Assembly (NCBI GenBank): GCA_016209205.1
Contig: JACQWQ010000026.1
Location: 1-64,000, forward strand
Reading direction: 5' to 3'
From: Chloroflexota bacterium
GTDB lineage: Bacteria; Chloroflexota; Anaerolineae; UBA4142; SHND01
DNA: 64,000 nt
Part shown: positions 27,579 through 29,906 of the stretch, in pieces
How the letters are laid out: every line of letters begins with the position of its first letter
Numbering within the stretch: position 1 is the stretch's first letter
Made by a program: the position numbers and the translations under genes
The notes under the pieces: model-generated
Databases searched by the model: none
Told to the model about the DNA's origin: nothing
What the model saw: only the letters and a program-made list of their open reading frames with translations

Positions 27579-27600
<22 letters not shown>

Positions 27601-28544
27601 TCCAATTCCTCCCAATTTCCAAATTCCTGTCTGAACCGCGCGATGAATTCGTGCAGTTCATAGTGATGATTTTGCGTGCCGTGTTCTTCGAGCGCATACG
27701 TCGCGGCAAGCGAACCCAGTCTTCCCGTAAATTCCCACGACAGATTGTGTAGTACGCCCTTGATAATTCCGGCGCGATACGCGTCGCCCGCGCCCGTCGG
27801 TTCGCCGATCCGTTTTGGCTTGGCAACAGGGATTTGGATGGTTCGTCCCGCGTGCGTGATGGTCGAGCCATTTTCGCCGTACGTCACGATGAGCGTTTCG
27901 GTTTGCGCGGCGATTTCATTCTCATTCCAGCCGGTTTTGTTTTGCAGCATGCCCAATTCGTAATCGTTGAGAATGATCATTTTGGAATCGCGACAGCCCG
28001 CTTTAAGGTCTTCACCGCTGAGGCGAATGATTTGTTGGCTCGCGTCGTAAACGTAGGGAATGCCCAGCTCCTTGCACTCGGCGACGTACTGCACCATCGC
28101 CGCGGGGTCGTTCGGCGAAATTACTGCCAACTCGATCTTGCCGTTGATGTGGTCTTGAAACGAAACGAGCCGCGCGTGCGCCATCGCGCCGGTGTAGAAC
28201 GACGCGATTTGGTTTTGCTCTTTGTCGGTGCTGACAAAAAACGACGCGGTAAACTCATCGGGGATTTCGATGATGGCAGAGGTGTCAATGTAGTGCAGTT
28301 CGAGCCAGCGGCGATATTCGGCAAAATCTTCGCCGACCGTCGCCATGATTTTCGGGCGCTCGCCGAGGAGGGCGAGATTGTACGCAATGTTGGTGGCAAT
28401 ACCGCCGCGCTGGCGCTTCATGGAATCCACGAGAAACGAAACCGAAATCGCGTGAATTTTTTCCGGCAGGATATGATCCTTGAAATAGCCCGGAAAGGAC
28501 ATGATGTAATCGTAGGCGATGCTGCCTGTAAGAACGACGCTCAA
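27579..28544 (-). CDS. PfkB-family carbohydrate kinase, probable adenosine kinase
   Basis: 321-aa ribokinase-like enzyme. Seen: the N-terminal GSIAYDYIMSFPG, GGIATNIAYNLALLGERP (substrate site), TASFFVSTDKE, and the catalytic/anion-hole EPTGAGDAYRAGIIKG. The location directly after ahcY in transcription order, and the known similarity of bacterial adenosine kinases to this type, make phosphorylation of adenosine released by AhcY the likely job; the sugar specificity cannot be read from sequence. The C-terminal LEKLEIRN is encoded by the neighbouring repeat array. Confidence 0.82.
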
Positions 28545-28581
28545 AGCAATAACCTCATGAATCGGTGTCGGATGGCTGTGG

Positions 28582-28692
28582 TATAATTACCGTAGAGTGG
28601 TAAACGCAAGACCAAAGTGGCTGGACGGCTGAAGGTAGCGGTTCACCTTCTCACGTTTTGTGAGATAAATCGGCGCTCTGGCAGTTTACCAT
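28582..28692 (+). ncRNA. structured small RNA, copy 1, with its own -10 box
   Basis: TATAAT (28582-28587) stands 7-10 bp before the RNA body. P1 pairs tggtaaac (28598-28605) with gtttacca (28684-28691). P2 pairs ccaaagtg with cgctctgg (one mismatch). A hairpin ctcac-gtttt-gtgag covaries with the copy at 28715. The conserved single-stranded words gcggttcacc and ataaatcggcg lie between. There is no open frame. The strand is inferred from the -10 position; the minus strand would make it a leader of the adenosine kinase gene. Confidence 0.7.
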
Positions 28693-28698
28693 TTGTGA

Positions 28699-28810
28699 TA
28701 TAATTAGCACATAGATGGTAAGCATAAGACCAGAGTGGCTGTTCGGCTGTTCACAGCGGTTCACCTTCTCTACGCGCGAGAGATAAATCGGCGCTCTGGC
28801 AGTTTACCAT
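28699..28810 (+). ncRNA. structured small RNA, copy 2, with its own -10 box
   Basis: TATAAT (28699-28704) is at the same distance from the body as in copy 1. P1 pairs atggtaagc (28715-28723) with gtttaccat (28802-28810) by one G-U. P2 ccagagtg/cgctctgg is complete with one U-G. The hairpin ctct-acgcgcg-agag replaces ctcac/gtgag of copy 1, so the stem is kept while the bases change. gctgt/acagc forms another stem. The end reads into ttttctattt. It overlaps the DUF3800 stop codon by seven bases, in convergent orientation. Confidence 0.72.
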
Positions 28811-29421
28811 TTTTCTATTTCTGACCAGTTCATCATTTGCTCAAAATAGATTTTCTGCGCTACAAGCTCCAGATACTCCTCTTCCTCGTTCTGGTACTTT
28901 GCCATCCCTGCCCCTGCCACAAAATCAGCGATTTGCAAACACACATCAGTCTGGCTCTCCCCATGCTCGATTTTTAGCTTTCGCCCTACGCGCGCCTCCA
29001 ACTCTCGATTCACTTTGGCGCGTTGTGTAGGATTCGTGAATTGCTTATCCAACACAAATTCAGCGTGCGGAAAATCAGATAGGATTCTTGTAAACAAGGG
29101 GAGCGCTGCTTGAGCAAAAATCTCAGGAGCGCTCCCTAACGGTAAACGATCCTTTGCGATAATCAGCAAGTAAAGCTGTGCGTCGGAAACTTGCGCCAAC
29201 AGCTCAAAAAACTTGATGCGCGTTTCTCTACCAGCGGAAAAGAAACGCAGCTCGATGACATTCTGAAATTGTTTGCCGCGCTGTTTCAGCCAGGCTCGAA
29301 CCTTTTTTACAACTCCACTCAACTCGCGTGGATTACCAGTTCCGACTGCGGCGACAACAAAAAATCTTCCCGAGCGATCAAGCAGGTTTCCACTTTCATC
29401 TACATACACAAAGTAGGTCAT
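28804..29421 (-). CDS. DUF3800 protein
   Basis: 205-aa protein of the DUF3800 family (RNase H-like fold predicted for the family). Hallmarks: VYVDESGN at 5-11, a FFVVAAV strand, FVLDKQF and the closing LQIADFVAGAG with its Asp. Known literature reports several classes of structured RNAs next to DUF3800 genes; two tandem structured RNAs abut the 3' end here. A nuclease, toxin or mobile-element role is plausible but unproven. It begins 4 bp after the broken dinB gene and ends inside RNA copy 2, and it is the last gene of a compact minus-strand run headed by mtnA. Confidence 0.88.
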   Translation of the reverse strand: MTYFVYVDESGNLLDRSGRFFVVAAVGTGNPRELSGVVKKVRAWLKQRGKQFQNVIELRFFSAGRETRIKFFELLAQVSDAQLYLLIIAKDRLPLGSAPEIFAQAALPLFTRILSDFPHAEFVLDKQFTNPTQRAKVNRELEARVGRKLKIEHGESQTDVCLQIADFVAGAGMAKYQNEEEEYLELVAQKIYFEQMMNWSEIEKW

Positions 29422-29425
29422 AAGC

Positions 29426-29906
29426 TCAATTTATGTTTCCAAAAATCTGCCGCAAATGCTCTTGCAAATGTCCAAAATAATCGCGAATGAAATAATCCAG
29501 TGTCACGGGTTGATTCGCGGGAACCGTCTGCCACGCGATTTTGTCGAGCGAGTGTTTGGTGCGCGGTTTCTTTAAGGTTTCATCCGAAATGCTGCTGATG
29601 ACGTGAAGTAGGTGCAAATTGTATTCCGTCCACAAATCCACGAGTGCCGCCCATGACTCGAGCTCGTACTTTTGCACGCGCACCCATTCCTCTTGCGCGT
29701 AACCGTCAAACACCAAATCGTCTTGCAGCTGGGCGCGCACGAAACGCGCGTGATTGTTCGCCGCCGAATCAATCAAGTGTCAGAATTTGTTTCGCGCACC
29801 AACCGTCTTTCAACGGTTTTTCCGTTTCCCCTTCGGAAATTTCCAGCAAGCGTTCCGATGCGGATTCGATGGTGGTACGAAATTGGGCGAGAAATAACTC
29901 ATCCAT
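29426..29906 (-). pseudogene. DinB-like protein gene, frameshifted
   Basis: The N-terminal part from ATG 29906 reads MDELFLAQFRTTIESASERL to GWCAKQIL, then meets TGA. The C-terminal part continues in another frame as LIDSAANNHARFV to the stop at 29426. A two-base loss at about 29777-29783 (expected GQIL-GHLIDSA) explains it. The intact product would be a roughly 160-aa DinB-fold metal-binding helical bundle. It sits between mazF and DUF3800, with 2-4 bp spacing on both sides. Confidence 0.8.

Follow-up and report, generated by a model that had tools for sequence, protein, structure and literature searches.

Structured RNAs near DUF3800 genes are already represented in Rfam; to our knowledge no role is known for them, and they were reportedly defined by Weinberg in 2017. 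In the available part of one report they are called putative ncRNAs (PMC10910872), and the accessible portions of two describe DUF3800 itself as a neighbour of Cas12a2 and as present at some VI-F and V-A2 loci (PMC10910872, PMC12669027). For AbiF/RCd22, the excerpted source describes an RNA in which the abiF motif occurs twice and which binds and neutralises a toxic protein (PMC12373285). An RNA-antitoxin role for DUF3800 was not found in the literature searched, which consisted of partial texts and had most subscription journals outside its scope, and nothing on point appeared by title for RNase HII together with toxin-antitoxin and noncoding RNA.

In the window (the whole stretch of 64,000 nt that was analysed, from an uncultured bacterium of Chloroflexota type), a preliminary description had proposed two tandem RNAs abutting a DUF3800 gene, each with TATAAT at the same distance, and both points are borne out. 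RNA a lies at 28594..28695 (+) and RNA b at 28712..28813 (+), scoring 106.4 and 117.4 bits against model R1, values that are circular because R1 was built with these copies. Each is approximately 100 nt long, and the two repeat in register with a period of 118 nt, at 80 % identity over 55 nt and 100 % over 33 nt. Extended -10 boxes are present at 28579..28587 (+) for RNA a (TGG and TATAAT, the latter at 28582-28587) and at 28696..28704 (+) for RNA b (TGA and TATAAT, the latter at 28699-28704), each RNA starting 6-7 nt 3′ of its own box; TGn with TATAAT or TACAAT is likewise readable 5′ of the RNA in sister copies. No -35 box for either RNA passes a consensus scan, and neither does any terminator at the two RNAs, including the T-rich run at 28810..28822 (+), which was read from the sequence and is the proposed 3′ end of the transcript. 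This run is present after RNA b and absent after RNA a in the window, G003, and G002, and is found behind the last RNA in G003, G002, and G005. Because it follows b and not a, transcripts from the first promoter might span both units. The RNAs are directed away from the neighbouring kinase gene and into the 3′ end of the DUF3800 gene, whose stop codon is within the 3′ strand of the RNA b end stem, giving an overlap of 10 nt.

A compensatory hairpin and a closing end stem of 8-9 bp had also been claimed. The stem exists, but its length is 11 bp in both RNAs. Compared with shuffled sequences, the + strand fold has z -3.04 for RNA a and -3.25 for RNA b, and the - strand fold z -2.74 for copy a and -1.39 for copy b. 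A 32-pair structure is shared by eight homologous copies (two from each of the window, G003, and G002, one from G005, and one G003 paralogue), in which 98.4 % of cells are paired and 7 of the 32 pairs are altered on both sides, in agreement with the compensatory hairpin and with covariation in homologues, here across four genomes of the genus. Pairing percentage, double-changed pairs, and covariation score were each reached by 0 of 500 shuffles, in a test on eight related sequences in which the structure has the advantage of having been derived from their own alignment; further pair types, one of the five measures, were not above shuffles (238 of 500), and slid controls paired at 35-51 %. Since the + strand reading contains 30 G-U cells against 1 A-C cell, encoding of the RNAs on the + strand is settled. 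The middle hairpin has two versions, one per copy, in each species (window, L020, L021), and as read from the alignment their order in G002 is reversed relative to G000 and G003.

Membership of the known DUF3800 RNA families, also raised previously, is supported in part. DUF3800-III (RF02962) is the best Rfam family for both copies, at 22.5 bits (a) and 24.9 bits (b), and both align to model positions 1-108, i.e. its full length, but both miss the gathering cut-off of 43.8 bits. In the reverse direction, R1 matches the accepted DUF3800-III RNAs at L070 (24.2 bits, E 5e-4) and L007 (23.1 bits, E 1e-3). It also identifies window-like RNAs at 31-35 bits in L031, L032, and L066 and at 46.9 bits at G077:C20, where no DUF3800-III is listed in Rfam scans to E 1 (L031, and the second RNA of L032), to E 0.1 (G077:C20), or at gathering (L066). 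With strict filters, the R1 matches among 249 genomes of the class came from G077 and from four members of the window's genus; the match at G019:C43 was seen only in a separate, less strict search, the stricter filters of the searches over 40 genomes losing weak matches of this kind. Based on these scores, kinship of the window RNAs with DUF3800-III is likely, the link not being tight, and they are best placed as a divergent relative of that family, not a member.

The convergent DUF3800 gene (28804..29421, - strand; 205 aa), assigned from Pfam, matches PF12686 at 41 bits, passing the cut-off of 21. The best fold matches of its predicted structure are RNase HII/H2, with an RNase H fold and conserved acidic residues, so the nuclease-like protein of the preliminary description is supported by a predicted RNase HII-like fold. 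Searches by sequence gave no convincing solved-structure relatives of the window protein. Weak PADLOC matches were to DUF3800_VII (E 1.3e-4) and PDC-M04A (E 0.0035, and E 5e-8 for the paralogue L030); the name PDC-M04 was not found in the literature searched. No viral relatives of window-type proteins were found in IMG/VR by alignment, and by fold the best viral match (E 1.3e-7) is to a phage protein that carries the name DUF3800. Nine DUF3800 matches are present in the window's own genome. At L036 and L038 two DUF3800 genes adjoin each other, one of which ends at a DUF3800-IX RNA; at L038 this gene is split into two frames.

The site is flanked by a PfkB-family kinase gene (27579..28544, - strand; profile match and synteny), which is divergent from the RNAs and conserved, and by a DinB-like fragment (29426..29776, - strand; 21.1 bits against a cut-off of 24.8). 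A SAM riboswitch (RF00162; 31750-31938, - strand; 60.7 bits, cut-off 44.4) is the sole entry in a whole-window Rfam scan at gathering. It precedes an MtnA-like gene (PF01008), with the DUF3800 gene downstream on the same strand. The same-strand gene row around the module reads like methionine salvage and may be one operon; the RNAs oppose its direction. Within the MtnA-kinase gap there is also a PemK/MazF-like toxin gene (PF02452; 29909-30551, - strand), with a small gene upstream of and overlapping it, and G004 has similar genes.

Kinase and MtnA genes are separated by ≤85 nt in 7 of the 11 order-level loci with both in view and by 382-817 nt in the other 4, and the content of the gap differs by species within the window's genus. 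Both RNAs and DUF3800 are present in G003 and G002 (84 % and 66 % identity), and one RNA with the final 27-28 codons of DUF3800 in G005. In G004, antitoxin-like, PemK, and DinB genes resembling those of the window are present without RNA or DUF3800, DinB adjoining the kinase with no module between, and the sequence parts from that of G004 approximately 15-25 nt ahead of the first -10 box, the distance for G003 being 17 nt. No such kinase was seen in G001 (79 % complete). At a paralogous locus, G003:C132, the RNA adjoins DUF3800 among other neighbour genes. Since the module is missing from G004, decayed in G005, and complete in G003 and G002, the RNAs and DUF3800 behave as a module that is gained and lost, the direction of change at G004 being unproven. 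The mobile-element hypothesis put forward earlier is consistent with absence in one genus-mate and decay in another, but neither transposon ends nor a multi-copy family were found; an element with recognisable ends was rejected, no terminal repeats or target duplications having been established.

Promoters convergent with DUF3800 genes are found well beyond this site. Using a sigma-70-type pattern, TTGACA-(16-18)-TATAAT, within 250 nt past the stop codon, an opposite-strand promoter of at least 10/12 was identified for 49 of 78 near-full DUF3800 frames, a non-random sample, and on the gene's own strand for 1 of 78. The same criterion was reached by 12 of 420 other frames (Fisher 8e-36 against 49/78), a control set of long stop-to-stop frames at those loci that contains spurious ones. 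The 78 frames were drawn from the window genome and its relatives, relatives of the window protein, and fetched DUF3800 matches, the last from genomes chosen for a DUF3800-III RNA (plus G019), and include the frame of one broken gene (L087). By our own tally, 66 of the 78 have a promoter or a recognised RNA (DUF3800-III, -VI, -IX, -X, or model R1) at one end, a count in which two are DUF3800-VI RNAs 5′ of the gene and the R1 cases are partly circular. The 12 with neither are L036 (one of two genes), L038, L011, L012, L071, L073, L077, L156, L168, L172, L176, and L182; some of these have weaker promoters, and two are from Bacteroidota, in which promoters differ. Because several promoters have no Rfam family behind them, none being listed for example behind that of L010, it is likely that there are further RNA classes beside DUF3800. 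At L010, L012, L013, and L018 (C229, C7, C117, and C15 of the window's own genome), DUF3800 ends next to promoter-like boxes and an apparently structured segment without an Rfam match there, which may represent new classes; a DUF3800-IX RNA is approximately 930 nt away at L013.

Arrays recur among these loci and, on this survey, the RNA pair of the window is not exceptional. Two DUF3800-IX RNAs are convergent with DUF3800 at G082:C190, and three are in tandem with a spacing of 145 nt at L225 (G204:C168, 1006-1364, + strand), where the middle RNA, at 30.0 bits, falls short of the 36.8-bit cut-off and the 3 kb examined contain no DUF3800. Promoter-like boxes are readable before each array copy. 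Likewise, two tandem DUF3800-VI RNAs are present 5′ of the gene at L149 and L154. At L032 (G000:C98, 1270-1507, + strand), a DUF3800-III-type RNA (39.1 bits, below cut-off) is located between the promoter and a window-like RNA; a single promoter next to a DUF3800 gene thus seems to serve two different RNAs, and the sister locus L031 (G002:C252) has only the window-like RNA. Near-identical DUF3800-III RNA units with promoters at L119 (G072:C176, 1292-1400 and 2450-2558, - strand) flank what reads like a small toxin-antitoxin gene pair, and their outer flanks differ. Promoter and RNA are common to G077:C115 and G031:C735, their flanks little so.

Loss at these loci is one-sided. There are 40 DUF3800-III matches in 23 of the 249 class genomes, 37 of them above the Rfam cut-off and excluding G019:C43, a 41st locus found by R1; 14 of these 23 genomes have just one match. 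Each DUF3800 profile hit next to these RNAs is convergent with the RNA and on its 3′ side. DUF3800 is near-full beside 14 matches (including G077:C139 and G006:C67, with shortened ends, and G163:C4, cut by the contig), broken or partial beside 12, and without trace beside 14. A promoter of at least 9/12 is retained by 21 of the 26 RNAs without near-full DUF3800, compared with 1.8 % in 380 flank windows and 9.0 % in shuffles. RNA genes at these 26 loci look almost as intact as those at the other loci: the mean promoter score is 9.9-10.0 against 10.7; mean end-stem pairing is 7.3-7.4 of 8 against 7.1, a comparison biased by the RNA model, which selects sound stems, whereas the promoter is outside the model. 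The T-run averages 7.1 T in 12 nt in the 14 no-trace loci against 8.9. Of the 22 further genomes that have a DUF3800-III match, five gave no DUF3800 at E ≤ 0.001: G203 (97 % complete), G072 (73 %), G136 (96 %), G049 (77 %), and G101 (95 %, with a match of 30.3 bits and a right flank of 264 nt). At least one DUF3800 is present in each of the remaining 17. For DUF3800-IX the loss is weaker: the best 30 of 58 matches comprise 20 near-full, 4 partial, 5 with none, and 1 with a short flank, i.e. loss in 9 of the 29 with enough flank.

Six remnants have the N-terminal part of DUF3800 close to the RNA and the middle missing (G203, G228, G248, G163:C398, G143:C855, and G146:C128), although both ends were detected by tblastn only in G228. 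C-terminal-type hits inside the RNA itself (G136, G049) were excluded from the remnants, of which 3 of 12 are weak (G104:C48, E 9e-5; G124:C131, E 0.002; G143:C855, E 0.002-0.006). In the same search, 3 of 41 left flanks also matched (E 1e-5 to 0.009), in each case within residues 1-50 of a single query frame, a segment taken to lie ahead of its domain. A reading of the remnants as MITEs was rejected, as G203, G228, and G248 each have a single DUF3800-III match in the genome and the other three score unlike their genome-mates. Distances between RNAs correlate with those between proteins (Mantel r 0.80 for 21 pairs, and 0.68 for the 13 pairs below 50 % identity, with 0 of 5000 permutations reaching the value in each case), in a set where the second RNA of G000:C98 replaces its DUF3800-III RNA and each tandem locus contributes copy b only. 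The correlation fits a matched RNA-protein pair, although joint inheritance alone would also suffice.

Retention of the RNA after loss of the nuclease suggests that the RNA restrains the nuclease, and an antitoxin pair is the reading preferred here because the nuclease is readily lost and the strongly promoted RNA is kept and multiplied. We give about an even chance to an RNA-restrained nuclease module resembling type III toxin-antitoxin systems in action, with another layout and fold. Such a module would comprise a DUF3800 nuclease gene and, tail-to-tail with it, at least one separately promoted RNA gene. The RNA would bind the nuclease and keep it inactive, comparable to the RNA antitoxins of type III toxin-antitoxin systems and AbiF, and a second copy would provide a higher RNA dose or a two-unit transcript. 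A fall in RNA through transcription shut-off, phage attack, or loss of the module would free the nuclease and lead to growth arrest. Transcription, binding, inhibition, toxicity, and trigger are all putative; of the hypotheses in the preliminary description, that of a toxin-antitoxin accords with the pattern of gene loss, its toxic component being presumed, and nothing was found in support of a guide RNA. Several observations count against restraint by the RNA. The layout is not that of type III systems, in which the RNA is 5′ of the toxin on the same strand, and orphan RNAs could be recent relics or could serve the other DUF3800 copies of those 17 genomes in trans. Among the five DUF3800-free genomes, two are 73-77 % complete and one depends on the 30.3-bit match. 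The weaker T-run of no-trace loci, the weaker loss with DUF3800-IX, the 12 of 78 frames without a 10/12 promoter or recognised RNA, the window copies without a clear -35, and co-divergence of the kind that joint inheritance gives also weigh on that side. That DUF3800 modules are widespread RNA-restrained nucleases, and that solitary RNA arrays protect against incoming or resident DUF3800, is a tentative extension and on the doubtful side; if true, duplicated, mixed, and lone RNA units would amount to solitary RNA immunity to a selfish nuclease.

DUF3800 might instead depend on the RNA as a cofactor or for recognition, the two forming an active ribonucleoprotein, for example in anti-phage defence. 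An accessory role proposed for DUF3800 beside Cas12a2, in the available parts of the sources (PMC10910872, PMC12669027), points this way, as do the RNase HII-like fold, the weak PADLOC matches, RNA-protein co-divergence, and the phage DUF3800 as best viral fold match. This seems rather unlikely, as near-full nuclease is absent beside the RNA in 26 of 40 cases, 5 of 22 genomes lack a DUF3800 match, the three-RNA array has none in the sequence examined, and the RNA finishes in its end stem, in most cases with a T-run, leaving no guide-like tail; an activating or steering RNA does not readily explain RNAs and arrays without DUF3800, unless it acts in trans. An independent small RNA gene with its own function, having DUF3800 as a dispensable processing or mobility partner, would account for the promoter-bearing units of G072 with their different outer flanks, for the likeness of G077:C115 and G031:C735, and for the RNA-only array at G204:C168. 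We consider it improbable given that an RNA or promoter adjoins one end of 66 of the 78 near-full DUF3800 frames, that RNA and DUF3800 co-diverge, and that no terminal repeats and mostly single matches per DUF3800-III genome were found. It is very improbable that DUF3800 is silenced in cis, by convergent transcription or 3′ overlap: RNA b covers the end of the gene and the surveyed DUF3800-III neighbours are all convergent, but among the 14 near-full cases 11 have a frame that, stop codon included, stops short of the RNA, RNA a does not overlap the gene, and it is the fold that is conserved, across divergent genes. The earlier alternative of a tandem, riboswitch-like leader of the kinase gene on the - strand can practically be dismissed; the copies are just 5′ of the kinase start on that strand and copy a folds better than shuffles there too, but the G-U excess and the -10 boxes are on the + strand, the paralogous RNA at G003:C132 accompanies DUF3800 amid other genes, and R1 finds an RNA beside 0 of 12 order-level kinase loci.

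The tail-to-tail arrangement, the convergent promoters, and the loss of the nuclease but not of the RNA make the role of the RNA testable at little cost. Should the RNA restrain the nuclease, a further fold and a further layout would be added to RNA-controlled nucleases, in a setting where one RNA family is in 23 of 249 class genomes and another in archaeal genomes (L068, L069).

Compared with the described systems, DUF3800-III is closest in form, having in common with the window the end stem, the UAAG..CC word, the inner stem, the AAAUCGG word, and a convergent position at the DUF3800 gene end (also in sister species); the window hairpins are shorter, and the window RNA is duplicated with an extended -10 per copy. 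DUF3800-IX, -X, and -VI are likewise sited at DUF3800 genes, mostly convergent at the gene end for -IX and -X and with arrays of two and three copies for -IX, but their sequence and fold differ, and DUF3800-VI is tandem, 5′ of the gene, and labelled Cis-reg. The RNAs of OMEGA/TnpB systems are on the same strand, at the gene end, and run into the guide; a guide of this type was rejected here, the window RNA being on the opposite strand and ending in a closing stem and T-run. In type III systems the RNA repeats are upstream on the toxin strand, whereas the window RNAs are convergent at the 3′ end. The fold of ToxN differs from the RNase HII-like fold; for the window protein RNase HII/H2 are the best matches, and the absence of ToxN/AbiQ from the match lists proves nothing either way. 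In the accessible part of its description, ToxIN resembles the window in combining repeated RNA units with a ribonuclease (a predicted one in the window), and differs in that its RNA repeats are short pseudoknots (PMC8860590). The DUF3800 nucleases of Cas12a2 and type VI-F loci share the domain and RNase H fold, and according to the available excerpts are found with TPR domains or beside CRISPR effectors, whereas the window DUF3800 has its own RNA (PMC10910872, PMC12669027). AbiF/RCd22, as far as the source was available, has its RNA (abiF motif RNA, RF03085) upstream of the gene and a protein with a link to ancestral Cas13 instead of an RNase HII-like one, and has in common with the window a structured motif present twice beside a protein gene (PMC12373285).
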